Below the pieces are notes generated by a model. It searched no databases and was not told the origin of the DNA. It saw nothing but the letters and a program-made list of their open reading frames with translations. This document shows, piece after piece, positions 8,066 through 60,245 of a stretch of 60,405 bases of DNA; the stretch's first letter is position 1; each line of letters starts with the position of its first letter. The position numbers and the translations under genes were made by a program. The stretch is from contig JASJAT010000052.1 of the NCBI GenBank assembly GCA_030066885.1, positions 1 to 60,405 of the forward strand, in the 5' to 3' direction. Source of the stretch: Arenicellales bacterium. GTDB taxonomy: Bacteria; Pseudomonadota; Gammaproteobacteria; Arenicellales; JAANXG01.

Positions 8066-8536
8066 ATGCCTACATTCGTATACATGACCCGCTGCGATGG
8101 CTGCGGACACTGCGTGGATATCTGCCCCTCCGATATCATGCATATCGACAAGACTTATCGGCGGGCAGTTAACATTGAACCCAACATGTGCTGGGAGTGC
8201 TATTCCTGTGTAAAGGCCTGCCCGCAGCACGCCATCGACGCCCGGGGCTACGCCGACTTTGCGCCGTTGGGCCACAGCGTAAGGGTTCGCCGAGAGGAGG
8301 AGAAGGGAATGATCTCCTGGAAAATCAAATTCCGCGACGGGCGTGAGAAAGACTTTGTTTCGCCGATCACCACTCAACCCTGGGGCGAGAAGATCCCGAA
8401 GCTCGCGGAAACCGAAGCACCTGACGACGACACCGTGAAGTCCCAGAATCTCTACTATGAGCCGCACGGCCTTGAAATCGATGGAGGGCTTCCAACGGTG
8501 CCGAAAGATAAGTTCAAACAGGGAGTGTACTACTAA
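8066..8536 (+). CDS. aprB: Adenylylsulfate reductase beta subunit
   Basis: A 156-residue ferredoxin-like subunit. Eight cysteines for two [4Fe-4S] clusters are present: C10, C13, C16 and C20 in CDGCGHCVDICP, and C42, C45, C48 and C52 in CWECYSCVKACP. The C-terminal tail (PITTQPWGEKIPK onward) is the segment that wraps around the alpha subunit in known structures. It carries electrons between the FAD of AprA and the membrane protein AprM. Its stop codon overlaps the aprA start by one base (taATG), indicating translational coupling. The ribosome site is weak. Confidence 0.96.
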   Translation: MPTFVYMTRCDGCGHCVDICPSDIMHIDKTYRRAVNIEPNMCWECYSCVKACPQHAIDARGYADFAPLGHSVRVRREEEKGMISWKIKFRDGREKDFVSPITTQPWGEKIPKLAETEAPDDDTVKSQNLYYEPHGLEIDGGLPTVPKDKFKQGVYY

Positions 8537-10371
8537 TGGCTAAATTCAAAACGGTATTCGAGGACTGCGATATTCTCGTCGTCGGTGGCGGCATGGGTGG
8601 CACCGGAGCCGCCTACGAGGCGCGCTACTGGGGCCGTGACATGAAGATTGTCGTGGCCGAAAAAGCCAATATCGACCGCAGCGGCGCGGTGGCCCAAGGC
8701 CTCTACGCTATTAACTGCTACATGGGAATGCGCTGGGACGAGAACCAGCCTGAGGATCACGTCCACTATGCGCGCAACGACCTGATGGGGATGGTGCGCG
8801 AAGATCTGGCCTACGACATGGCGCGCCATGTGGATTCCAGTGTACATCAGTTCGACGAGTGGGGGCTGCCCTTCATGAAGGACCCGGAAACCGGGCGCTA
8901 CCAGCGTGAGGGCAAGTGGCAGGTCATGATCCACGGTGAAAGCTACAAGCCCATCGTGGCAGAAGCCGCTAAAAAGTCCGCCGACAAAATCTACAACCGG
9001 ATCATGGTGACCCATCTGCTGATGGACGAAAGCAAGCCCAATCGGGTAGCCGGGGCCGTGGGTTTCAACGTCCGTACTGGGGACTATCATGTTTTCCGGG
9101 CTAAAGCGGTGATCGTGGGCGCTGGCGGCGCATCACACATCTACAAGCCGCGGTCCGTAGGCGAAGGTATGGGCCGTACCTGGTACGCGCCATGGAGCAG
9201 TGCATCCGCATATGCGCTACCCATCCAGGTAGGCGCCAAGATGACCCAGATGGAAAATCGAATCGTGCTGTGTCGGTTCAAGGATGGTTACGGACCTGTA
9301 GGCGCGTATTTCCTCCATCTCAAAACCTACACCCAGAACGCCTACGGCGAGGAGTACGAGTCCAAGTGGTACGACCATACCAAGGAACTGGTGGGTGAGT
9401 ACATCGATCACCATCCGACACCGACCTGTCTGCGTAACCATGCTTTCCTCGAGGAGGTAAAAGCCGGCCGTGGCCCCATCCACATGGTCACGAAGGAGGC
9501 GTTTCAGGACCCTCATAAAGAGATCGTTGGTTGGGAGAATTTTCTCGGGATGACCATAGGGCAGGCCGTGGTTTGGGCCTCTCAGGACATTGACCCGAAA
9601 TACACCAACCCCGAGCTCACCACATCAGAGCCGTACGTCATGGGTTCCCACGCTACCTGTTCCGGCGCCTGGGCGAGCGGGCCCGAGGATCTTTCCCCAG
9701 ACGAGTATCAGTGGGGCTATAACCGGATGATGACCGTTGACGGTTTGTTTGGCGCGGGTGATGCCTTGGGCGGCACCGCCCACGCATTCTCCTCGGGGTC
9801 CTTTACCGAAGGCCGCCTGGCGGCGAAGGCTGCGGTGAAATACGTGCGGGATCTGAAGAACGAGCAGATCCGGGTCACTGAAAAGCAGTACGATGATCTC
9901 AAGGAGACCATCTATAAACCGCTGGAAACCTATAAGGTGGGGCGGAACGAAATCGTGGGTGGAACGGTGTCCCCCAGCTACCTGCTGCCGATTCAAGGTC
10001 TACAACGACTCGAGAAGCTGATGGATGAGTACGCTGGCGGTATCTCAGTCCACTATATGACCAATGAACCGCTGCTCCTGCGTGGCCTTGAGCTCATGAA
10101 AACCTTTCATGAAGACCTAGAGTATCTGGGGGCAGAGGACTTGCATCAGCTTCAACGGGCCTGGGAACTTAAGCACCGTGCCATTGCGTCGGAGTGCGTC
10201 CTTCAGCATACGCTGTTCCGCAAGGAAACCCGCTGGCCCGGGTACTACTATCGTGGCGACTACATGAAGCTAGACGACGAAAACTGGCATGTGCTGACCC
10301 TTTCCCGCTACGATCGGGAGAGTGGTGAGTGGGCGATGGAGAAAGCGCCCGTTTACCACCTCGTCGACTAA
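8536..10371 (+). CDS. aprA: Adenylylsulfate reductase alpha subunit
   Basis: A 611-residue FAD enzyme of the fumarate reductase/succinate dehydrogenase superfamily. In sulfur oxidisers it runs from sulfite plus AMP towards adenosine-5'-phosphosulfate (APS), delivering two electrons; in sulfate reducers it runs the other way. The N-terminal FAD motif is VVGGGMGGTGAA, followed by the segment EKANIDRSGAVAQGL. The capping and helical domains are complete and the C-terminus (YYYRGDYMKLDDENWHVL) is intact. No dsr, sox or sat genes occur in the window, so direction is inferred from the partner aprM and the aerobic setting. A strong terminator closes the operon. Confidence 0.96.
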   Translation: MAKFKTVFEDCDILVVGGGMGGTGAAYEARYWGRDMKIVVAEKANIDRSGAVAQGLYAINCYMGMRWDENQPEDHVHYARNDLMGMVREDLAYDMARHVDSSVHQFDEWGLPFMKDPETGRYQREGKWQVMIHGESYKPIVAEAAKKSADKIYNRIMVTHLLMDESKPNRVAGAVGFNVRTGDYHVFRAKAVIVGAGGASHIYKPRSVGEGMGRTWYAPWSSASAYALPIQVGAKMTQMENRIVLCRFKDGYGPVGAYFLHLKTYTQNAYGEEYESKWYDHTKELVGEYIDHHPTPTCLRNHAFLEEVKAGRGPIHMVTKEAFQDPHKEIVGWENFLGMTIGQAVVWASQDIDPKYTNPELTTSEPYVMGSHATCSGAWASGPEDLSPDEYQWGYNRMMTVDGLFGAGDALGGTAHAFSSGSFTEGRLAAKAAVKYVRDLKNEQIRVTEKQYDDLKETIYKPLETYKVGRNEIVGGTVSPSYLLPIQGLQRLEKLMDEYAGGISVHYMTNEPLLLRGLELMKTFHEDLEYLGAEDLHQLQRAWELKHRAIASECVLQHTLFRKETRWPGYYYRGDYMKLDDENWHVLTLSRYDRESGEWAMEKAPVYHLVD

Positions 10372-12025: not shown

Positions 12026-12143
12026 CCAGGCTTCACTCTCAACTGACGATTGATGGCAGTCACGCTCCCGTGATTCCATTCGGGCTTGACAAAGAGAACG
12101 ACACAAAACACGCTGCCATGAACCGATATCGGGAGGTGGAGTG

Positions 12144-12788
12144 ATGACAACGACTGCATGGGTACTCAGAGGCACTGAATACGGCAATTGTAATTGTGAC
12201 TATGGGTGCCCTTGTCAATTCAATGGGCGACCTTCTTCACCCGATGGGGACTGTAGATATGCCCTGTTCACTCAGATCGACGAGGGTAATTACGGAAACG
12301 TGAACCTCGATGGACTACGGTTTGTCTGGTTGGGTGGCTGGCCTGGTGCGGTGCACGAAGGCAACGGGACAATTCAACTCATCATCGACGAACGCGCTAA
12401 TGAAGAGCAACGTGAGTCAATCCGCCATATTGTCTATAACGAGGACACTGACGAGCTACTGACTCACTATTCGATATTCTGTGCAATGTGCACGACGATC
12501 CATGATCCGATTGTCGCGCCTATTGAACTGGAGTTCGATATCGAGGCAAGGACAGCCCATGCTGAAATTCCCGGAATTGTTATTTCTGACGCTGAACCGG
12601 TGCGCAATCCGGTTACCGGTGAACCCCATCGTGCACAGATCGTGTTGCCAGAGGGGTTTGCTTCGACACTGCTAGAAACAGCTAGTGGAACAGTCAAAGC
12701 GACCGGGATTGTGTCCTTGGACTTTGCCGACACGTTCGCCAGTTTTTCTAAACTGCATATGACGGATCGGGGTATCGTTAGAGGTTGA
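12144..12788 (+). CDS. DUF1326 domain-containing protein
   Basis: A roughly 214-residue protein opening WVLRGTEYGNCNCDYGCPCQF, with the clustered cysteines typical of DUF1326. The middle contains WLGGWPGAVHEGNG and a C-x-x-C (CAMCTTIHDP), also typical. The family is widespread in proteobacteria without a settled function; the cysteine pattern suggests metal or cofactor binding. The ORF track starts at a GTG three bases earlier, but the ATG at 12144 is better placed relative to GGGAGG. It is a single gene between the TPR and M24 genes with 100-150 bp on each side. Confidence 0.82.
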   Translation: MTTTAWVLRGTEYGNCNCDYGCPCQFNGRPSSPDGDCRYALFTQIDEGNYGNVNLDGLRFVWLGGWPGAVHEGNGTIQLIIDERANEEQRESIRHIVYNEDTDELLTHYSIFCAMCTTIHDPIVAPIELEFDIEARTAHAEIPGIVISDAEPVRNPVTGEPHRAQIVLPEGFASTLLETASGTVKATGIVSLDFADTFASFSKLHMTDRGIVRG

Positions 12789-30585: not shown

Positions 30586-33150
30586 TCAGGTTTTGGGTAA
30601 CTCGTTGGCCGGATCGTACAACCCTTTGCAGCCTACGGCTTCAACCTTCATCGGAAACGATTCCTCGAAATATTCCATCCTCAATTCCCTGCCTTCATTA
30701 GCGTAATCTCGCGGCAGGTACGCCAAGGCGATATTCTTGCCGACAGAGGGACCGTAGGCGATGCTGGTGATATAGGAACGTCTGCCCAACTCATCCACCA
30801 ATACCTCATTGGATTCGGGATCAAGCACCGGCCACTGACCAACCGGGTAACGGGCGATGCCCTTTGCGTCCACGTTATCCGTCATCGTCATCGTGCACAG
30901 GTACGCTGGCTGATGTTCGCGCTCCCGCTGTGCGACATAGGCAGCCTTGCCATGAAAGTCCGCCTGCTTGACCTTGGGCCTCGCAAGACCTGCCTCGTAC
31001 AGGTTGTACTCGGTTAAAAGATCTGCGTTTTGCAGTCGAAGGCTTTTCTCCAGGCGCCGGCTGTTGGCATAGGTCTCCACGCCGACCGGCGTCGGACCCT
31101 GCTCATATACTATGTCCCACAGCGACAGGCCATAGCTGAACGGAACGTGCAGTTCCCAGCCCTGTTCACCCACATAGGATATACGGAATGCCAGCACTGG
31201 AATGCCCCGCAGGGTAATATTCCGAGTGGTGGCAAAGGGAAAATTATCGGCTTCCAGTTGTTCCGGTTTATCGGCCACAGCCTGCAACACCTTACGCGCA
31301 TTGGGTCCCCACACACCCAAGCAAGCAAGATGATCGCTGCGGTCTTCGATGTATACGTTCCATCCACGGTCTTCCGCCATCCGTTTCATCCAGACATAGT
31401 CCCTATTGCCTGCATCGGCGCCGTCGATCACCCGGAACCTGTCCGATGCGAGTCGAATCACCGTGAGATCAGCGCGTATACCTCCCGCGTGATCTAAAAA
31501 GTGAGTGTATATTCCCTTCCCGACCGCGGTATCACCGCCCACCTTGGCAACACAAAGGTACTCCATCAATGTCTCCGCATCGGCGCCGGCAACATCGTAA
31601 ACCGCGAAGTGGGACAGGTTGATCATCCCGACGTTTTCGGACAGGGCAAGATGTTCAGCGTTGGATACCCGCCAGAAGTGGCGGCTGTCCCATTCGTTTT
31701 CGCGCACCGGTACCCGGTCGCCATACTTCTCCAACAGATGTTCGTTGGAAGCGTATCCATGCGCCCGCTCCCAGCCAGCAAGTTCCATGAAATACCCGCC
31801 CAGTTCTTGCTCTCGCGACCAAAACGGGCTGCGGCGAAGATTGCGCCCTTTAGTGTAGGGTTCGCGCGTGTGCACCGCCGGGTTATAGATTTTGAATGCT
31901 GTTTCGTAGCAGCGGTCGTAGATGTAGGAAGGCGTCTTCTGGATTGGGTAATAGCGGGCGACATCGATGCCGTGGACATCCATCTCGGTCACACCGTCGG
32001 TCATCATTTCCGCCAACACTTTTCCGATACCGGGTGCGTCTTTGACCCATACCGACTCGGCGTACCACAGTCCGCGGGTATCGGGTGATTCCCCGATTGA
32101 AGGACCACCATCCGCCGTGACCTGCAACAAACCATTGAAGGAGCGCTTCTCATCCCAGCCCAGTTCACCGAGGATGGGTGTCAACTCCATCGCCCGCTCC
32201 AGGGGCTCCATGATTTGTTCGATTTCGAGGTCGCGCTGAGAGGGCGACAGACGGGCTTCCTCTTTCTCTAGAAGATTCATTGGATGTACCAAGCGCGGAT
32301 CCTTCTCTTCGTAGTAACCCCATTCGATCTGACCGCCTTCTGGTGTGGTGGAGTCACCGGTGTCTCGGAGATATGCCGAGTTACCCTGGTCACGCAGTAG
32401 GGGGTAACCGATATCTTTTCCGGTGCCGTCGAACTCGGTGAAGGGGCCGAAAAAAGACAAAGGATGATCCACCGGCATGATTGGGAGGTCTTCGCCGGCC
32501 ATTTCTGCTATGAGGCGTCCCCATAAACCCGCGCAGACCACCACTGTACTGGTTTCGATGTAACCTCGACTCGTTTGTATACCCTTTATCCTGCCGCTCT
32601 CTATATCGAGACCGGTAGCCGGCGTGTTGGGGAAAGTCTGCAATTTACCGGTTGCCTCGGCCTGCTCAACCAATATACTCACCACAGTCTGGGAACGAGG
32701 TACGACCAGACCGGCGTCTGGATCCCACATTGCACCCTGGATCATGTCTTCTTCCAGTAGCGGGAATTTCTCCTTTGTTTCCTTCGCGCTGATCATCCGA
32801 ACATTGGTGCCGAACGCTTTTCCCGAGCCAACTTTACGCTTGAGTTCTTCCATGCGTTCATCATCGTCGCGACGCGCTACTTCAAGACCGCCGATCCGAC
32901 TGTAATGCCCCAACTTGTCGTAAAACTCCACACTGTATTTGGTGGTGTAACAAGTCATGTTGTCATGGGCCGTTAGATAGCAGAAATCAGACGCGTGGGA
33001 AGTGGAACCGATGTCGGTAGGAATCGAGGACTTGTCGATGCCGACAATATCCTGCCAACCTTTTTCAATCAGGTGATGCACGACCGAGGCACCGACAATT
33101 CCACCTTGGCCGATGATGACAACATTTGCACGAGTAGGAAAGCTCGCCAT
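30586..33150 (-). CDS. FAD-dependent oxidoreductase fused to a GcvT-like domain (dimethylglycine dehydrogenase family)
   Basis: An 854-residue enzyme. Residues 1-400 form a DAO-type FAD domain with a GxGxxG-like motif (IIGQGGIVGAS) and GSTSHAS, in which the His sits where DMGDH/sarcosine dehydrogenases attach FAD covalently. Residues about 430-840 form an aminomethyltransferase (GcvT/GCV_T_C) domain (YVGEQGWELHVP, VGVETYANSRRLEKSLRL) that binds tetrahydrofolate and captures the one-carbon unit. It likely demethylates a methylated amine such as dimethylglycine or sarcosine, or a related compound, feeding one-carbon metabolism. A run after the His (SDFCYL) differs from the usual AAG, so substrate preference may be shifted. 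It is monocistronic. Confidence 0.88.
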   Translation of the reverse strand: MASFPTRANVVIIGQGGIVGASVVHHLIEKGWQDIVGIDKSSIPTDIGSTSHASDFCYLTAHDNMTCYTTKYSVEFYDKLGHYSRIGGLEVARRDDDERMEELKRKVGSGKAFGTNVRMISAKETKEKFPLLEEDMIQGAMWDPDAGLVVPRSQTVVSILVEQAEATGKLQTFPNTPATGLDIESGRIKGIQTSRGYIETSTVVVCAGLWGRLIAEMAGEDLPIMPVDHPLSFFGPFTEFDGTGKDIGYPLLRDQGNSAYLRDTGDSTTPEGGQIEWGYYEEKDPRLVHPMNLLEKEEARLSPSQRDLEIEQIMEPLERAMELTPILGELGWDEKRSFNGLLQVTADGGPSIGESPDTRGLWYAESVWVKDAPGIGKVLAEMMTDGVTEMDVHGIDVARYYPIQKTPSYIYDRCYETAFKIYNPAVHTREPYTKGRNLRRSPFWSREQELGGYFMELAGWERAHGYASNEHLLEKYGDRVPVRENEWDSRHFWRVSNAEHLALSENVGMINLSHFAVYDVAGADAETLMEYLCVAKVGGDTAVGKGIYTHFLDHAGGIRADLTVIRLASDRFRVIDGADAGNRDYVWMKRMAEDRGWNVYIEDRSDHLACLGVWGPNARKVLQAVADKPEQLEADNFPFATTRNITLRGIPVLAFRISYVGEQGWELHVPFSYGLSLWDIVYEQGPTPVGVETYANSRRLEKSLRLQNADLLTEYNLYEAGLARPKVKQADFHGKAAYVAQREREHQPAYLCTMTMTDNVDAKGIARYPVGQWPVLDPESNEVLVDELGRRSYITSIAYGPSVGKNIALAYLPRDYANEGRELRMEYFEESFPMKVEAVGCKGLYDPANELPKT

Positions 33151-48639: not shown

Positions 48640-49395
48640 TTAACTCGCCTGCTGCGTTGGTCGGATCAGGATGTCGTGGATCTGCATATGTGCGGGTGCT
48701 TCGAGCAGGTAACAGACCGCGTCCGCAATATCCTCGGGGTTAAGCACCTGAAAAGCGGTATAGATTTCCTTTGCCTTGTCTTCACTGCCGTGGAACAGAC
48801 TTGCAAACTCGGTTTCGACCAAACCCGGGCTGACCGATCCGATCCGGATCATGGAATTCTGCTCGCGTAACTCCATGCGAAGTGACTCCGTCAGCGCTCT
48901 GACCGCGTGCTTGCTGGCCGAGTACATGCCGGTGCTGTGTGGAACCCGGTGCCCCGCCATCGAGGAGACATGGACGATGTGCCCGCTGCGAGAAGCCTTT
49001 GTCATCTGCATGACGGCTTCGCGAGTGGCGATACACAACGCCAGAACATTGACTTCCAGCATTTCACGCCACAGATTCGTGTCCCCCGAGGACAACGGTG
49101 ACTTGTAGCCCAGCCCGGCATTGTTCACTAACACGTCCAACGGACCAAGTGCTGACTGGATCCGGGCGAAAGCATCAACGATTTCGGTTTCCTTTCGCAT
49201 GTCAACAACCAGTGGCAGGCAGGGATTCTGCAACTGGTCAGCAAGTCTTCTTAGCCGGTCCTCGCGCCGGGCGCAAAACGCCACATGTGCTCCACGTGCA
49301 TCGAGCTCCCTGACGATCGCGGCGCCGATTCCTGATGATCCTCCGGTTACAAATGCAGTTTTACCGGAAAGGCTGCTGTTTTCCCGGACATTCAT
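48640..49395 (-). CDS. Short-chain dehydrogenase/reductase
   Basis: A 251-residue classical SDR with TGGSSGIG (about 17-24), the Arg pair CARRED after beta-2 that favours NADP, NNAG in NNAGLGYKS, Ser in VSSMAGH and Tyr/Lys in YSASKHA. It belongs to the broad YdfG/clavulanate-dehydrogenase type group. The substrate is unknown. It is probably monocistronic, 247 bp from the DddP-like gene. Confidence 0.82.
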   Translation of the reverse strand: MNVRENSSLSGKTAFVTGGSSGIGAAIVRELDARGAHVAFCARREDRLRRLADQLQNPCLPLVVDMRKETEIVDAFARIQSALGPLDVLVNNAGLGYKSPLSSGDTNLWREMLEVNVLALCIATREAVMQMTKASRSGHIVHVSSMAGHRVPHSTGMYSASKHAVRALTESLRMELREQNSMIRIGSVSPGLVETEFASLFHGSEDKAKEIYTAFQVLNPEDIADAVCYLLEAPAHMQIHDILIRPTQQAS

Positions 49396-49642: not shown

Positions 49643-50899
49643 TTATCGAAGCAAATCCTCTTCAAAAGGAAACCGTGACAATAATTCCGTGCCATGTTCC
49701 GTGATGAGTACCTGTTCCTCCAATTTTACGCCTTCGTGACCACCTTCTTCACCGATGTAACTTTCCACACAAATAGTCATACCCGGGAGAATAACTCCAT
49801 CATAACCCGCATCTGCGAAGTCCGCGCGATGGTATAAATAAGGATACTCGCCGGTCATACCGACACCATGAGACGAGAGATAGTAGCGGTTAGCAAAGTA
49901 CTTCCCGGGGATATCCCACGCCTTGTCCGCGTATTCGCGAAAACTCAACCCCGGCCCCAAAATACCAATATTGTGGTGCACCTGCTCGTGGGCAACTTTA
50001 TACAGGGTCTTTTGCAACTCTGTTGGTTTCGCGGGACCCACGTGAAACGTGCGCGAGAAATCCGAATAATATCCATGGCAACCGACAACATCAGTGTCTA
50101 GTGCAATCAGTTCATTCTCACCGATGATTTTATTCGCCGACTCCTGAAACCAGGGGTTCGTACGTTCTCCAGAATTTAGCAATCGAGTTTCACAATAATC
50201 CCCATTAAGTGCAATAACCGACTGGTGCAATACAGACCACAATTCATTCTCAGTTATGCCCGGACGAATAGCCTGGCGTAATTTACTTACCCCAGCCTCT
50301 GTGGCTCGCAGTGAGGCAATTACGCATTTAATCTCTTCATCCGACTTGATGCAGCGTGCCATTTCTATCGGTTCTTGGGCGTCGACCAATTTCGAACCCA
50401 GCTCCGCCAAAGCCAATGCCGCACCCGCATTCATGCGTTCAATCCCAACGATTGTTTTTGCCCCAACCAACTCTGTAATAGTCGATAAGATTTCTTTAGC
50501 CCAATTGCGCTCTCGTGCAGAAATACCTGGGCCCGCGGCCACAAAGCTCGCCGTCTTTGCCGGCCGCACCTCGTCTACAGTTTCGAAACCCTCCGCCAAA
50601 TGAAGACAGCCTGTGAATTCGTACAGGATTGTCCGAGCATCAGTGACTAATAAGTAGCGAGACGGCGTATTACGCGAAGAAAATATTTGCATATTACGCG
50701 TGCCAGTGGTGTATCGAATATTCACCGGGTCCGAAACGATAAGCGCGCCGATGTCTCGCTTCTTCATCTCCTCCCGGACACGGCTCAGACGGTAAAGCCT
50801 TACCGCTCGCATATCGATGCCTTTGCTTTCCGGTGCACTATCAAGCAATGCTATCCCGGATAGGTTGGATCGGCCCGAATGCCAGTCAAGTTCTGTCAT
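49643..50899 (-). CDS. DddP-like M24 metalloenzyme lacking the DMSP-lyase catalytic Asp
   Basis: A 418-residue protein strongly resembling DMSP lyase DddP: ETRLLNSGERTNPWFQE, ALDTDVVGCHGYYSDFSRTF, SSHGVGMTGEYPYLY and CVESYIGEEGG...VKLEEQVLIT align without gaps to DddP as I recall it. All six iron ligands are kept: D268, D270, D280, H344, E379 and E394 (DddP 295, 297, 307, 371, 406 and 421, a constant shift of 27), and Tyr366 (Y339) too. The catalytic base Asp377 is Gly350. So it likely binds the metal pair but may not cleave DMSP; a peptidase-like or other activity is possible. It follows the 2OG-oxygenase gene by 27 bp as an apparent two-gene operon. Confidence 0.85.
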   Translation of the reverse strand: MTELDWHSGRSNLSGIALLDSAPESKGIDMRAVRLYRLSRVREEMKKRDIGALIVSDPVNIRYTTGTRNMQIFSSRNTPSRYLLVTDARTILYEFTGCLHLAEGFETVDEVRPAKTASFVAAGPGISARERNWAKEILSTITELVGAKTIVGIERMNAGAALALAELGSKLVDAQEPIEMARCIKSDEEIKCVIASLRATEAGVSKLRQAIRPGITENELWSVLHQSVIALNGDYCETRLLNSGERTNPWFQESANKIIGENELIALDTDVVGCHGYYSDFSRTFHVGPAKPTELQKTLYKVAHEQVHHNIGILGPGLSFREYADKAWDIPGKYFANRYYLSSHGVGMTGEYPYLYHRADFADAGYDGVILPGMTICVESYIGEEGGHEGVKLEEQVLITEHGTELLSRFPFEEDLLR

Positions 50900-50926: not shown

Positions 50927-51910
50927 CTACTGATCGGTGGAAGCGATTCGCTTCTTAATGGAACGCCGCAGTCTGCGTATTGATCGGCGATACCACGGCG
51001 GTCGTGGCTTTTGCGGCTGCTCAAACAATCCCTCTGGTATCGATCGGTCGACTTCACCTATGATGTTCACAAGACGCCGTGTGTACGGGTTGGGCGGTCT
51101 GTATGAAACGGCGTGCAGTGCCTCGTCCGAGTTGATGAATCCGACGAGGACGTTTGGGCGGTAATCGATCGTACGCAGGTACTCCGCATCCTGCTCGTCG
51201 ACCTCACTGCCGCGAAAACGTCGATTTCCGGTAATCCAGCGATAGATCTCGAGGTCTCCTCCTTTAACAGCGTCGTCGGTACCGCGGAAATAGAGCAACA
51301 TTGCGAACAACTCGACCGGTGCATCCGTGTGGACACGGCGCACGCTCGATGAGACCTCAACAGGCGTATTGATCCCGACCTGACAGTCCAAAGAGATGTC
51401 GACGGACGCCTCGAATCGGCGCCCGACCGTGCAGGCATCAAGGGATTTACCCAATCTCCGCTCGAGGTTGGGATGCGTCGCGCGTATGTGGTTACCGAGG
51501 AGTGATACAACCTCACGATAGAATTCTGAGGAAGTGTGGTAGTCGATGAATTCGCGCCAAACTTGGGCCAGCTCGCAATCGGTGCCAAGGGCTTCGCTGG
51601 CCGAGATCTGATAGCGGGTGTTCTGCTTGCGTACATTACACATACGGTCAAGCGCTATGATGTATTCATCAGCAGGATAACTTTCTTCGAGCTGGTGATA
51701 GTAGGCTTCGGACAACGGACGCTGGACTGCGAAGTGCACATAAGGATCGACGACAACGTCGGGCGGCGTGGCTCGGCTAAGGATACTCTCGACCATCGGC
51801 CGAGAATTATAGCGTGACGGGAAAGTGGTGTGATTGACGAATAGGGCCTTGATGCATATGCGGGCCAACTTGATTACGTCGGGGAAAACTAACAGTATTG
51901 ACTGATCCAT
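50927..51910 (-). CDS. 2OG-Fe(II) oxygenase superfamily protein
   Basis: A protein of about 327 residues with the jelly-roll iron motif: His-x-Asp in RRVHTDAP, the distal His in EALHAVSYR, and the 2-oxoglutarate-binding Arg in TRRLVN. GGDLEIYR is the usual strand between. The N-terminal 90 residues are less distinctive and the C-terminus is very basic (YRRSIRRLRRSIKKRI). The track start reaches back into the divergent SDR gene; I take the internal ATG at MDQSI, but the ribosome site is weak and MVESI at 51796 is also possible. It probably hydroxylates a substrate related to that of its DddP-like neighbour. Confidence 0.75.
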   Translation of the reverse strand: MDQSILLVFPDVIKLARICIKALFVNHTTFPSRYNSRPMVESILSRATPPDVVVDPYVHFAVQRPLSEAYYHQLEESYPADEYIIALDRMCNVRKQNTRYQISASEALGTDCELAQVWREFIDYHTSSEFYREVVSLLGNHIRATHPNLERRLGKSLDACTVGRRFEASVDISLDCQVGINTPVEVSSSVRRVHTDAPVELFAMLLYFRGTDDAVKGGDLEIYRWITGNRRFRGSEVDEQDAEYLRTIDYRPNVLVGFINSDEALHAVSYRPPNPYTRRLVNIIGEVDRSIPEGLFEQPQKPRPPWYRRSIRRLRRSIKKRIASTDQ

Positions 51911-51968
51911 TAAAAACAACGAACGAAGACTAATATTCACACACATTCGTAACTTACTAACAGGGCAC

Positions 51969-52724
51969 GTGCGCGTATTCATAACAGGCGTTTCATCCGG
52001 CATCGGTAGAGCCTTAGTTCGGCAGCTCATTGCGGCTGGTCACGAGGTATGGGGAATAGCCCGCCGGGAAGATCAACTGGAAGAACTCAACAAGGAGCTG
52101 AATAGTTCAAAATTTCGGTATACCGTTTGCGACGTTAAAAACGAGAATGAGGTTCGAAACGTCCGGCAAGAGATGGTGACCAGTAGTTATTTTCCAGACA
52201 CATTTATTCTCAACGCTGCCGTTGATATTGAGGAACCGTTACCCCACCTGTCCGCAGAAGTATCCCGTGAAACCCTCCGAACCAATCTGGAAGGCGCCCT
52301 TATCTGGGTCAACTTGTTTATCGATCACTACCTGGGCAAAGAACATTGTCAGTTTATCGCCATATCATCTTTGTTCGCCCATTGGCCGGATACTTCGAGC
52401 GTGGCGTACGCAGCGAGTAAAGCAGGACTGGCTATGGCCTTTCGCAGCCTTTGGCTGCGCTACCGCGAGTACGGCATTCGTTTCAAGGTGGTTTATTTTG
52501 GCCCAGTCGACACTGGAATTAATCCGCGTTTTGTAAATCAAGCCGGGGAGAAAGTGCCGCGTTGGGTGACGTCCCCCGAAAACGCATCCCGTTTTATTAT
52601 CAAGTCCGCTTCAAGTTCTGGACACGTGTTTTATCATCCCTGGTACGTTTCTGTCCTGATCAAGCTGTTTGGCTGGCTCCCGGATAGTTTCTTTGAAACT
52701 GTAACGGGCTCATTTAAGCGATAG
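51969..52724 (+). CDS. Short-chain dehydrogenase/reductase
   Basis: A 251-residue SDR from a GTG start. FITGVSSGIGRAL is the cofactor motif and ARREDQ suggests NADP use; Ser is in AISSLFAHWPD and the catalytic pair in YAASKAG. It is co-transcribed with the glycosyltransferase that starts 4 bp after its stop, which suggests a role in surface glycan or sugar modification rather than lipid metabolism. Divergent from the 2OG oxygenase. Confidence 0.8.
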   Translation: MRVFITGVSSGIGRALVRQLIAAGHEVWGIARREDQLEELNKELNSSKFRYTVCDVKNENEVRNVRQEMVTSSYFPDTFILNAAVDIEEPLPHLSAEVSRETLRTNLEGALIWVNLFIDHYLGKEHCQFIAISSLFAHWPDTSSVAYAASKAGLAMAFRSLWLRYREYGIRFKVVYFGPVDTGINPRFVNQAGEKVPRWVTSPENASRFIIKSASSSGHVFYHPWYVSVLIKLFGWLPDSFFETVTGSFKR

Positions 52725-55481: not shown

Positions 55482-56771
55482 TCAGACAGTACGGATGTAA
55501 CGATCTCGCTCCCAGTCGCTGACGGCTCTTTGCCAGGCCTTCAGCTCCCAATTGCGCGAGATCTCGTAGTACTTGCTGAAGTCCTCACCAAGTGCGTCGC
55601 GCAGCCCGGTATCGGCACGGAACGCCGTCAGTGCGTTTTCCAGTGAGTTGGGTAAAGCGATGAGATCGGATCGTTCTGACACATCACCTTCGAGCGGCGT
55701 CGGCGGTGCCATCTCGTTACGGATTCCGTCCGCCGCTGAAGCAACCAGTGTAGCCAGCGCGAGGTATGGATTGGCATCGGCGCCCGGCCGGCGGCACTCG
55801 ATTCGAGATCTCTCCGTACGTTTGGAGTGAATTGCACGGACCGAAGCTGAGCGATTCTCGTAGCCCCAACTGACATTGACTGGGGCAAAGTAGCCGGGCA
55901 CAAGGCGCTTGTAGGAATTGACTGTAGGATTGAGTAGCAGAGAAGCCGCCGGCAGATGATCGAGCACACCTGCGATTGCCGCAGTCGCTACCGCTGTCGC
56001 ATCGTCGGTAGGATCAGCCGGGGCGAAGGCGTTTGTTCCCTCATTCCACAAAGACAAATGCACGTGCCCGCTCGAGCCCTCTTCCAGCGGCATTGTCTTA
56101 GCAAGGAAACTTGCACGCAGCCCAAGCGTAGCGGCTAAGTCTTTGACTGCGAATTTAACGTAGGCGGCATCGTCGGCTGCACGCAAACCATGCCGCGCAG
56201 CAATATTGAGTTCCAGCAAACCGGGCCCCGCCTCGGTATGGACTGCCTCGAGCTCGACGCCAAGTCCATCGAGCGCAGGGACGAGGTTTGAGAGCAAGGT
56301 ATTGAAGTGTCCAATCTCGTTCAAGTGATAGCTGAGTCCACTCGACAGGGGTGCCGCTTCCTGATCAAAGATGCGCACTTCGTATTCAAACGCCGCCAAC
56401 ACTTCGTAGCCGAGCGCCGCCATGCCGTCCAAAGACTCTCGCAATACCTCACGTGACGCGAGTTGGCAGCGACGACCGTCACGCCAACTGGGTGTGGCGA
56501 GGCAAATTTGCCAGCCTGATCGCCAGGTGAGTTCTCGTAAAGTATCGGAATCGGGTTCGATCAACAGGTCAGGCGCACCGGTACGAATGCCGTAGTTCTC
56601 ATAGTCTGCAATGGGTGCATCTACCGGATCCAGGCCGAGCCAGAGGTCGGTCATCACCGCTCCGTTCTTAACTGCTGATTGAAACGCCGAGGGCCGCAGT
56701 GCCTTGCCGCGGATCGAGCCGTGTACGTCAGGCATCCCAAGCAGAACAAACTCTTTGCTGGCGTCCGTCAT
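55482..56771 (-). CDS. Glutamine synthetase family ligase (gamma-glutamylamine synthetase type)
   Basis: A 429-residue protein of the GS-I superfamily. Metal and substrate residues are seen in FEYEVRIF, GPGLLELNI and GHVHLSLW, with the NSYKRLVPGYFAPVNVSWG and RIECRRPGADANPYLAL segments of the PuuA/GlnA3-like group. The tyrosine adenylylation loop of GlnA is absent. Such enzymes gamma-glutamylate amines or polyamines with ATP. It is last in a four-gene coupled operon, overlapping the previous gene by 4 bp. The exact amine is unknown. Confidence 0.85.
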   Translation of the reverse strand: MTDASKEFVLLGMPDVHGSIRGKALRPSAFQSAVKNGAVMTDLWLGLDPVDAPIADYENYGIRTGAPDLLIEPDSDTLRELTWRSGWQICLATPSWRDGRRCQLASREVLRESLDGMAALGYEVLAAFEYEVRIFDQEAAPLSSGLSYHLNEIGHFNTLLSNLVPALDGLGVELEAVHTEAGPGLLELNIAARHGLRAADDAAYVKFAVKDLAATLGLRASFLAKTMPLEEGSSGHVHLSLWNEGTNAFAPADPTDDATAVATAAIAGVLDHLPAASLLLNPTVNSYKRLVPGYFAPVNVSWGYENRSASVRAIHSKRTERSRIECRRPGADANPYLALATLVASAADGIRNEMAPPTPLEGDVSERSDLIALPNSLENALTAFRADTGLRDALGEDFSKYYEISRNWELKAWQRAVSDWERDRYIRTV

Positions 56772-58126
56772 GATTGATTGGTACGGCCAAGTGCCGCCTT
56801 TATCTCGTGTTCGACCTTCTCTAGCGTCTTTACGAAGCGATTGATCATCTCAGCGAGTTCCTCGTCTTTACTGGTATATGCAGGGGCCAACAGGGTCTGA
56901 TCCCCGGTAAAGCCGTCCCGAGTCGAATGAGTAGAGGTGACCAATAAACCCTGCTCGAGTGCCTTGTCGTCGATGAGCGTTGCTGCGTCGAGACTATCCG
57001 GCAGCAAAGATTGACCGTCGCGTGGATCGACGTAATCTACGCCAAGCAGGAAACCGTGTCCCCGTACCTCCCCAACTATGTCACAGCCGGCAAGCGCCGA
57101 TTCCAACTCATCGCGAAACGATGGACCTCGTGCGGCAACGCGATCGAGCAGCTTGTTATTAATCATAAAGTCGAGCACAGCCAGGCCGACCGCACAGGGC
57201 AGGGGGGCACCGTCCCAAGTATGCCCAAGATCAAAAGCGCGCGACCCGTTGGCGAGAACCTCATACACATGCTCCCGGCATAACGTTCCCGCCAACGGAG
57301 CATACCCCGCACCAAGGGTTTTACCCGCAGTGACGATGTCGGGCTCGATAGGTAAGCCTTGCCCGGCAAACCAGCGGCCGGTTCGACCAATGCCGGTGAC
57401 GATCTCGTCGAAACAAACTAAGAATCCGTGACGCTCCCGGCGCTCCGCCAAGCCTTCCCAAAAGCGAGTCGGCGGCGAATAAGCCGGTAACGCCGCCGCA
57501 CTAACCGGCTCACAGAAAAACGCTGCCACGGTCTCAGGTCCAGCCTCTTCAAGGACTTGGTCCAGTGCGTCCAGGGCGCCTTCACCGGTTGGATCGAAAC
57601 GCTTGGTACTGGGTGGGATATGTAAATGCTTGGCCATGTATGGGTCGAACGGCGTCTGTAATCCCGTACGACCCGATAAGGCCAACGTCGCCATTGTCGC
57701 ACCGTGATAAGACTGGGCCGGCGAGATCACTCGCCAACGTCCGGTATCTCCCCGGTCGACGTGATAAGTTCTTGCCAGCCGTAGTGCCGTTTCGTTAGCC
57801 TCAGCACCCCCACTGACGAAGCGTGCGCGTGCCATTTCCGGCGCTGCCACGTCTAAAAGGCGCTGGGCCAGCTGTTCTTGTGGCTGGTTGGTAAAAAATT
57901 GGTTGTACATATAGGCGATGTCACCGGCACTCTCCCAGGTGGCTTCGACTATCTCATCACGGCCGTGACCGAGGCTCGCTACCATGGCGCCGCCGGAGCA
58001 GGCATCGAGTATTTCGTCACCTTCAGCGGTGTAGAGCCACACACCCTCACCCCTTTCTATACTGGGATAGCTCCGACTAAGGTAACGTGGAAAGACGCTG
58101 GTCGCGTCGGAATTGATTCCGATCAT
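56768..58126 (-). CDS. Class III aminotransferase (second in operon)
   Basis: A 452-residue PLP enzyme. GGAEANETALRLAR binds phosphate, FDEIVTGIGRTGRW precedes the Lys in TAGKTLGAGY, and HTWDGAPLPCAV is seen in the second half. It belongs to the omega-amino acid/GABA/putrescine transaminase group. It is a close paralogue of the other aminotransferase of the operon: shared runs include PPTRFWEGLAERRERHGFL-like and GHGFLLGVDYVDPRDGQS sequence. It overlaps both neighbours by 4 bp (ATGA type). Confidence 0.9.
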   Translation of the reverse strand: MIGINSDATSVFPRYLSRSYPSIERGEGVWLYTAEGDEILDACSGGAMVASLGHGRDEIVEATWESAGDIAYMYNQFFTNQPQEQLAQRLLDVAAPEMARARFVSGGAEANETALRLARTYHVDRGDTGRWRVISPAQSYHGATMATLALSGRTGLQTPFDPYMAKHLHIPPSTKRFDPTGEGALDALDQVLEEAGPETVAAFFCEPVSAAALPAYSPPTRFWEGLAERRERHGFLVCFDEIVTGIGRTGRWFAGQGLPIEPDIVTAGKTLGAGYAPLAGTLCREHVYEVLANGSRAFDLGHTWDGAPLPCAVGLAVLDFMINNKLLDRVAARGPSFRDELESALAGCDIVGEVRGHGFLLGVDYVDPRDGQSLLPDSLDAATLIDDKALEQGLLVTSTHSTRDGFTGDQTLLAPAYTSKDEELAEMINRFVKTLEKVEHEIKAALGRTNQS

Positions 58127-58857
58127 GGTGCTTCGTCCTTGACAAGAATGCTGTCTGTGGCCAGTGGTCGAAGCCCCGCTACGTCCTCGATGAATCGCTC
58201 GAAGAGTTGCAATGCGATCTGCCGAGAGTTCGCAGCGATACGGTGGGTCTCCGCCATCAACTCATCAGGGTCAACACCGACGGCGGCCAGCTCATGGGGA
58301 TATGCCTTTACCCAATAGTCCATAATCTCGGGGGTCACCTCTGGATGAAACTGCAACCCAAGACTTCGCCCAGCTACAAAGACCTGCGGACCTGCTGGAC
58401 TGTCGGCAACCAGTTTGGCCTCCTTCGGCAGAGTAAAGGTATCGAAATGCCATTGGAACCACGGCCCCTCTGCCACCAGCTCTAGATCGAGGCTTCTAAC
58501 CGGTAACCAACCCACCTCCGACAGTTCTCCACGAAAACACTCGCCACCAAGAATTCGCGCCAGTAACTGGCCACCAAAGCACAAACCGAGTATTGGAACA
58601 TCGGCCTCGGTAGCCTCCACGAACAATTCTTTTTCGCGGTCTATCCATGGCAACGAATCGTCGAATGCGGCGTACTGGGAACCAAGGGAAGCGATGAGGT
58701 CATAGTCTCGGGGTTTGATCTGTCGCTCATCGATATCAATCCTGAAAATGTCAATCCGTGCGCCCAAGTCAGTAAGCCATTCAGCGAGCACACCCGGTGG
58801 CGTGGGCTCTTCGTGTTGGATAATCAGTGCTCGAAAATCACTATTGGTTCCGTTCAT
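58123..58857 (-). CDS. Class I glutamine amidotransferase-like protein
   Basis: A 244-residue protein with a single class I GATase domain. The nucleophile elbow is PILGLCFGGQLLA (Cys), with the His/Glu in LQFHPEVTPE. Family members include GMP-synthase-like stand-alone amidases that could hydrolyse gamma-glutamyl amides. In this operon a role comparable to PuuD, releasing glutamate from a gamma-glutamylated product, is plausible, although PuuD itself is of another (C26) subgroup. It overlaps the aminotransferases on both sides by 4 bp. Confidence 0.85.
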   Translation of the reverse strand: MNGTNSDFRALIIQHEEPTPPGVLAEWLTDLGARIDIFRIDIDERQIKPRDYDLIASLGSQYAAFDDSLPWIDREKELFVEATEADVPILGLCFGGQLLARILGGECFRGELSEVGWLPVRSLDLELVAEGPWFQWHFDTFTLPKEAKLVADSPAGPQVFVAGRSLGLQFHPEVTPEIMDYWVKAYPHELAAVGVDPDELMAETHRIAANSRQIALQLFERFIEDVAGLRPLATDSILVKDEAP

Positions 58858-60245
58858 CGAATATCTCCCTGAGCCTCGGCGGCTGTTGGTTGTTTGTGAT
58901 TAACGAGCTCGCGCTCAACCTGCTCAGCCACTTCCGATATCGACGCCGCAAAGCGACGTACCATCTCTGCCAGCTCTTCTTCGGTGGTAACAAAAGGCGG
59001 GGCAAATAGGCTTTGGTCTCCCGCATACCCGTCTCCGGTGGGTTGTGTAGACAGCACGATGAGTCCATTCTTACCCGCGGTCTTGTCGATTCGGCCGGCA
59101 ACACCCAGTTCACGAGGCAGAAAAGACTGCCCGTCTCGAGGATCGACATAGTCAACACCCAGTAAAAAACCGTGTCCCCGTACTTCACCAACGAGATTGA
59201 TCCCAGCCAGCGCCGCTTCGAGCTCCTCCCGCAGTACAGGACCACGTGAAGCAACCCTTTCTACCAAGCTTTCAGAACGTAACGCGTTAATCACGGCCAC
59301 GCCCACCGCACAGGACAAGGGAGCCCCATCCCAGGTGTGACCCAGCGAAAAAACTTGGGAGCCTTGGGCAAACGCGTTGTAGACAGACTCCTGACATAAA
59401 ACTGCTCCGATCGCAGTGTAGCCCGCACCCAGACCTTTCGCAGTTGCGATGATGTCAGGCAGCAGGGGCAAACCTTCGGCTGCAAACCAGCGACCGGTTC
59501 GGCCGATACCAGTGACGATCTCGTCGAAACAAACCAGGAATCCATGACGCTCCCGTCGCTCTGCCAAACCCTCCCAGAAGCGGCTCGGAGGTGAATAAGC
59601 CGGCAACGCCGCTGCACTGATCGGTTCGCAGTAAAACGCCGATACTGTCTCAGGCCCAGCCTCTTCCAGCGCCTGATCCAGCGCCTGCAAAGCAGCTTCC
59701 CCGGTAGGGTCGAAGCGCTTTGTGCACGGTGGGATGTGCAAATGCCGGCTGAGATAAGGCCCGAATGGTCCTTGCAGACCCGGCCGCCCCGTCAAAGCCA
59801 ATGTTGCCATGGTCGGTCCATGATATGCCTGTGCCGGCGATATGACCTGCCATCGCTGTGTCTCTCCGCGTTCGACGTGATACGCTCGAGCCATCCTTAG
59901 CGCAGTCTCATTTGCTTCGGCACCACCGGTAACGAAACGCACCCGGCTAAATCCCTCTGGTGCGACCTCAACCAACTCCTGGGCCAGCCGTTCCTGCCAC
60001 GGGTTGGTAAGCCGTTCATTATGGACATAGCTGAGCTGTTGTGCCTGCTGGCGCGCCGCGTCGATCAGATCGCGCCGCCCGTGGCCTAGTGTTGCCGCCA
60101 TCGAACCACCGCTCATGGCATCGAGGTAACGTTGCCCCGTTGAATCCTCTACCCATGCACCTTCGCCCCGCACGACGACAGGGTATGGATGGCTCAGGTC
60201 CAACGGAAGAACAGACGTGTGTGCGCTGTCAACCACTGATGTCAT
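58854..60245 (-). CDS. Class III aminotransferase (first in operon)
   Basis: A 463-residue PLP enzyme. GGAEANETALRMAR, FDEIVTGIGRTGRWFA, the PLP-Lys in TAKGLGAGYTAIGAV and GHTWDGAPLSCAVGV mark the class III fold. It is about as long as its paralogue two genes later, and the two share long identical runs, indicating a tandem duplication with the amidotransferase between. It is the first gene of a four-gene operon; its start is preceded on the minus strand by a ggagcc site. Confidence 0.9.
   Translation of the reverse strand: MTSVVDSAHTSVLPLDLSHPYPVVVRGEGAWVEDSTGQRYLDAMSGGSMAATLGHGRRDLIDAARQQAQQLSYVHNERLTNPWQERLAQELVEVAPEGFSRVRFVTGGAEANETALRMARAYHVERGETQRWQVISPAQAYHGPTMATLALTGRPGLQGPFGPYLSRHLHIPPCTKRFDPTGEAALQALDQALEEAGPETVSAFYCEPISAAALPAYSPPSRFWEGLAERRERHGFLVCFDEIVTGIGRTGRWFAAEGLPLLPDIIATAKGLGAGYTAIGAVLCQESVYNAFAQGSQVFSLGHTWDGAPLSCAVGVAVINALRSESLVERVASRGPVLREELEAALAGINLVGEVRGHGFLLGVDYVDPRDGQSFLPRELGVAGRIDKTAGKNGLIVLSTQPTGDGYAGDQSLFAPPFVTTEEELAEMVRRFAASISEVAEQVERELVNHKQPTAAEAQGDIR

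Follow-up and report, generated by a model that had tools for sequence, protein, structure and literature searches.

A DddP-like branch of M24 proteins with glycine at the catalytic aspartate position and, in many relatives, betaine-type neighbor genes

Among the DMSP lyases counted in ocean surveys, DddP is one of the most abundant. Asp377 is its favored catalytic base and Tyr366, proposed in RdDddP, is an alternative candidate; both residues are invariant among the characterized DddP proteins (PMC4108388), and a conserved Trp has been reported as sulfonium-binding (PMC5395565). An earlier note on a stretch of DNA from an Arenicellales bacterium (60,405 nucleotides of contig JASJAT010000052.1, assembly GCA_030066885.1, here called the window) pointed to a gene whose product carries all the metal ligands of DddP and has Gly in place of the catalytic Asp. 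Is this protein a DMSP lyase with an altered base, or does it belong to another family with another substrate or mechanism?

At the level of fold the 418-residue protein is a member of the M24 metallopeptidase superfamily, possessing a Peptidase_M24 domain (Pfam; residues 195-401, 106 bits), a Creatinase_N domain (residues 37-184, 42.5 bits), the pita-bread fold and the full set of dinuclear-site ligands. Phmmer matched it to RlDddP (4rzy, E 6.9e-65) and RdDddP (4b28, E 2.3e-65), and its identity to DddP is about 31%. Structure prediction, suggested in the earlier note as a check, gave an AlphaFold2 model (pLDDT 88.6, pTM 0.87) with the DddP fold, whose top PDB match in Foldseek was RlDddP (TM 0.90, 1.7 Å). 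Residues 232-416 align to 4rzy at a constant shift of 27 with no gap, and all six metal ligands are kept (Table 1), exactly as first read. The retention of Tyr366 and the replacement of Asp377 were likewise borne out, the first by the alignment to 4rzy and the second by that alignment and the codon itself. The motif around Gly350 is SSHGVGMTGEYP, as against LMHGVGLCDEWP in RlDddP, and Glu378 of DddP is also present. Two further replacements, which the note had not mentioned, place Phe73 at the position of Trp95 and Arg76 at that of His98; we take 95 to be the number of the sulfonium-binding Trp of DddP, and hence the Trp position to be the one occupied by Phe73. The RlDddP mutants D377N and Y366A are both present in the PDB.

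Table 1. Window positions of the M24 gene, its active-site codons and other genes discussed in the text
Feature	Positions	Strand	Basis
DddP-like M24 enzyme CDS, 418 aa, ATG start	49643..50899	-	ORF call
Gly350 codon GGC, site of DddP catalytic Asp377	49850..49852	-	codon read and alignment
Phe73 codon, site of RlDddP Trp95 (probable sulfonium-binding Trp)	50681..50683	-	alignment
Arg76 codon, site of RlDddP His98	50672..50674	-	alignment
Tyr339 codon, DddP Tyr366, kept	49883..49885	-	alignment
Metal ligands Asp268, Asp270, Asp280 (RlDddP D295, D297, D307)	50060..50098	-	alignment
Metal ligand His344 (RlDddP H371)	49868..49870	-	alignment
Metal ligand Glu379 (RlDddP E406)	49763..49765	-	alignment
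Metal ligand Glu394 (RlDddP E421)	49718..49720	-	alignment
ORF 27 bases upstream of the M24 gene, 367 aa; possible operon partner	50927..52030	-	
Short-chain dehydrogenase, 247 bases downstream of the M24 gene; possible operon partner	48640..49395	-	
Second M24 protein, 390 aa	12935..14107	+	
DUF1326 gene	12141..12788		
AprA-like adenylylsulfate reductase subunit A	8536..10371	+	
Glutamine-synthetase-like, GATase and two class-III aminotransferase-like genes	55482..60245	-	
FAD oxidase with GCV_T domains	30586..33150	-	

The two Pfam domains would also fit an ordinary Xaa-Pro peptidase or prolidase of the M24 kind, in which case the betaine-type neighbors described below would reflect shared osmotic or nutrient regulation. 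The protein has the pita-bread fold and dinuclear ligands of the M24B Xaa-Pro dipeptidases and aminopeptidases P, prolidases were among the next structural matches (TM ~0.7), and in PGAP annotation related proteins carry the name 'Xaa-Pro peptidase family protein' or 'aminopeptidase P family protein'. We nevertheless consider a peptidase quite unlikely, for the match to the DddP structures is far closer (TM 0.90) and identity to the M24B enzymes is only about 20%. When the prolidase motif HGVGLEIHEWP is compared with HGVGMTGEYP, Gly350 falls at the conserved His preceding Glu; judged from the motifs, the protein would therefore lack both the DddP base and the peptidase His.

Ectoine hydrolase DoeA and creatinase, which followed in the same group of structural matches, share the M24 fold and act on small zwitterionic compounds (osmolyte or N-methyl substrates). 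Creatinase works without metal, and the sarcosine that it produces is passed on to demethylation genes of the kind considered below. Ectoine-hydrolase and creatinase-like readings were both dropped, since similarity in fold and sequence is low (TM ~0.7, ~20% identity), and the Gly-bearing protein lies in the DddP-like branch. The window encodes a second M24 protein, next to a DUF1326 gene, in which several metal ligands of Pyrococcus prolidase are replaced (VHAEF for VVIDL, HSVTM for NSDIT) and which is therefore probably metal-free, as in creatinase.

The distribution of the Gly was examined by scanning a single genome for each species, which gave 214 relatives. The best 80 of the 214 (69-76% identical) came mostly from Alpha-, Gamma- and Betaproteobacteria, plus one record each from Spirochaetota, Actinomycetota and Latescibacterota, and 77 of the 80 named species are Pseudomonadota; four genomes within the same order or class contain orthologues with 65-69% identity. 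The resulting orthologue set comprised 85 rows (65-76% identical) within an alignment of 125 proteins. Gly350, Phe73 and Arg76 are each present in 85 of 85 rows, and among the Asp- and Val-type rows His98 is kept in 38 of 38 and Trp95 in 33 of 38. The positions of Trp95 and His98, which both lie in the N-terminal domain, have thus changed in step with that of Asp377, and the Gly/Arg/Phe signature is co-fixed. Three more distant relatives on plasmids (L130, L131 and L133; 53% identity in Caballeronia, 45% in Sinorhizobium and Shinella) carry Gly and Arg, with Tyr at the Trp95 position. The Gly is therefore not an isolated mutation, and its being a private change or sequencing oddity of one genome, to which we assign virtually no weight, is refuted by its presence in the orthologues of separate genomes. 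The six ligands, the surrounding motif and Tyr366 are kept in all of 87 rows that span several classes and phyla. Two rows (L074_69 and L084_57) had been considered as exceptions to the Gly; they are Asp-bearing paralogues from the same loci, which branch with the Asp rows in the trees. Loss of the proposed base of the nearest characterized relative might also mark a non-catalytic protein, either a sensor or a decaying copy; with the ligands and motif preserved so widely, an intact reading frame and a confidently predicted fold, this is very unlikely.

Does the protein then belong with DddP? In a careful maximum-likelihood tree of 55 proteins, in which the DddP clade consisted of RlDddP, RdDddP and the rows above the NCBIfam cut-off, the Gly/Arg branch stood apart with support of 100/98, and a forced union of the two was 140.6 log-likelihood units worse and was rejected (p-AU 3.4e-60). 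The NCBIfam DddP model NF043017 gives the window protein 301.1 bits against an equivalog cut-off of 600 bits, whereas the rows that pass it reach 665-882 bits. One genome (G100) contains both a true DddP (L045, 753 bits) and a Gly orthologue (L037). Given the identity of about 31%, the separate clade, the coexistence in one genome and the rejected union, the protein is a member of a distinct, apparently uncharacterized subfamily, and the description of it as a close DddP relative had to be abandoned; the expectation that the Gly would prove fixed in a clade was borne out. In the open-access PMC literature, searched for DddP homologues without activity, for M24 proteins with betaine, stachydrine or creatinase genes and for the S. 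meliloti SMa146x tags, no characterized member of the Gly/Arg branch was found.

The same results bear on the prediction that automatic annotation would name the protein a DMSP lyase. The sub-threshold NCBIfam score and the PGAP names speak against such a label, but a survey relying on E-value only would catch the protein (E 1.2e-89). One published survey, which reports 'dddP' from Cobetia and Marinobacterium without printing the sequences, keeps matches of 40% identity or more (PMC9327192), and this filter would remove it.

The window genome has three further DddP-like paralogues (L002, L003 and L004), each of which has Asp and scores under the cut-off, and in a further DddP-like branch, the Val type (L013, L023 and L036) Val occupies the Asp377 position (HGCGLGVEYP), so that it too is without the proposed base, while His98 is kept. 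These Asp- and Val-type paralogues are mostly 36-45% identical and have the six ligands; they differ from the Gly enzyme in having His at position 76 and Asp or Val at 350. In a quick tree the Val clade came out as sister to the Gly clade (81%), a grouping that the careful 55-protein tree did not recover; as the two trees disagree, we make no claim on it.

At the window locus itself the betaine-type neighbors BCCT, OpuAC and MTTB are absent from around the M24 gene, and function must therefore be read from the relatives. The 367-residue upstream ORF matched nothing in Pfam, and nothing in the PDB at a significant level. Three other genomes of the same genus have only relatives 36-43% identical, which suggests that the gene was gained by transfer or lost in the sisters. 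Elsewhere in the window, the AprA-like gene (653 bits to a solved AprA) suggests dissimilatory sulfur metabolism, and a row of genes for a glutamine-synthetase-like protein, a GATase and two similar class-III aminotransferase-like proteins, the last read from sequence, resembles a gamma-glutamyl amine pathway. The FAD oxidase with GCV_T domains, of the dimethylglycine/sarcosine dehydrogenase type, lies about 16.5 kb from the M24 gene.

In the relatives, genes within 1.5 kb of the Gly enzyme at 84 loci were compared with those in the 1.5-10 kb flanks as an internal control, using Pfam names and clusters built from ranked ORFs. BCCT transporters were found 8 times within 1.5 kb and 0 times in the flanks, OpuAC glycine-betaine/choline-type binding proteins 9 times and once, MTTB methyltransferases 5 times and twice, BetA-like GMC proteins 6 times and once, and GCV_T-type FAD oxidases 3 times and twice. 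A second control of 39 Asp/Val-type paralogue loci (618 kb), drawn from other taxa than the Gly loci, contained neither BCCT nor OpuAC, and MTTB was never adjacent there. Taken together these three genes mark 22 of 84 Gly loci as against 0 of 39 (Fisher p ~1e-4, for loci that are not phylogenetically independent and sets that differ in taxa). Three Asp-type loci adjoin FAD/GCV_T (DMGDH-type) oxidases, and part of the context thus belongs to the wider family. By a loose count a recognized betaine gene lies within 10 kb at 36 of the 84 Gly loci, leaving over half without; linkage to betaine uptake or demethylation genes is clear in about a third of relatives.

These linkages arise with different partner genes in different families. 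All 8 BCCT cases are gammaproteobacterial (Oceanospirillaceae, Halomonadaceae and Aeromonadaceae), the OpuAC cases come from Burkholderiaceae (6 of 9), Pseudomonadaceae and Spirochaetaceae, and the MTTB cases from Phyllobacteriaceae, Rhizobiaceae and Roseobacteraceae and one gammaproteobacterium. The adjacent transporters, being of betaine/choline type, argue further against a peptidase, though family-5 binding proteins also occur at some Gly loci. A divergent LysR gene clustered in 47 loci, and the one scanned, at a Marinobacterium locus, is of GcvA type. In Sinorhizobium and Shinella the order of PGAP-named genes is FAD oxidoreductase, LysR, trimethylamine methyltransferase family, GlxA regulator, Gly enzyme, isochorismatase-family hydrolase and glycine-betaine ABC transporter. 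At three Phyllobacteriaceae/Rhizobiaceae loci (L074, L084 and L100) MTTB, the Gly enzyme and a DMGDH-type oxidase stand in a row, and the first two of these loci hold an Asp-type DddP-like paralogue within the same stretch. DUF1028 and RidA genes lie near the Gly enzyme at three loci of the same order as the window organism (L046, L047 and L049), and two of them (L046 and L049) have deacetylase-like and thiamine-diphosphate enzyme genes as well, named from sequence.

The absent base, the fixation of Gly in a clade, the signature residues of that clade and its gene context make a different substrate or mechanism, raised as a possibility in the earlier note, likely. The protein might still act as a lyase that eliminates an amine or sulfide from a betaine, be it trimethylamine from a nitrogen analogue of DMSP or DMS from DMSP itself, the base being Tyr339 or some other group. 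The metal centre is intact, Tyr366, the alternative base, is retained in every one of the 87 rows, and BCCT proteins carry betaines and DMSP. Such a lyase is nonetheless unlikely: Asp377 is the favored and invariant base of characterized DddP (PMC4108388), the whole clade has lost it together with Trp95 and His98, and among the clade-specific alignment columns no new acid appears near the motif.

We consider it moderately likely that the protein is a DddP-like M24 dinuclear metal enzyme serving betaine-type catabolism, with a betaine or a betaine derivative as its substrate, rather than DMSP cleavage by the DddP mechanism. Betaines are common protectants against salt stress. This explanation builds on the ligand set, the predicted fold, the Gly/Arg/Phe signature, the separate clade and the gene context of the relatives. 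The two metals, Phe73 and Tyr339 would hold the carboxylate and onium group of the substrate much as DddP holds DMSP, Phe73 probably being supplied by the partner subunit, although the single-chain model cannot place Phe73 or Arg76 at the site of a partner. With Asp377 gone, a metal-bound hydroxide may attack the substrate, as in M24 hydrolases, and cleave an amide-like C-N bond; this hydrolase step is the least certain part of the proposal. Gly350 would leave room for a larger substrate, and Arg76 would bring a new charge in place of His98. In those relatives with the genes adjacent, the product would pass to demethylation by the MTTB methyltransferase and DMGDH/sarcosine-type oxidases.

The branch is widespread, a single scan with 214 relatives having placed it in at least 80 species, and so large a related group, with the metal site and without the base, can raise the number of DMS producers where these are counted by E-value. 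The betaine uptake and demethylation enzymes of marine bacteria are only now being described, as with the MtgB-type system (PMC12478193). We tentatively raise the possibility that the Gly/Arg branch represents a betaine-cleaving metalloenzyme not yet described, which in marine and soil Pseudomonadota would be the missing step between the uptake of some common osmolyte or a compound derived from it (by BCCT or ABC transporters) and B12-dependent demethylation by MTTB; DddP would in that case be a specialized offshoot of a larger family acting on onium zwitterions. Identifying the substrate of the branch would add a step to the cycling of osmolyte carbon and nitrogen, and would also show the origin of DddP lyase chemistry.
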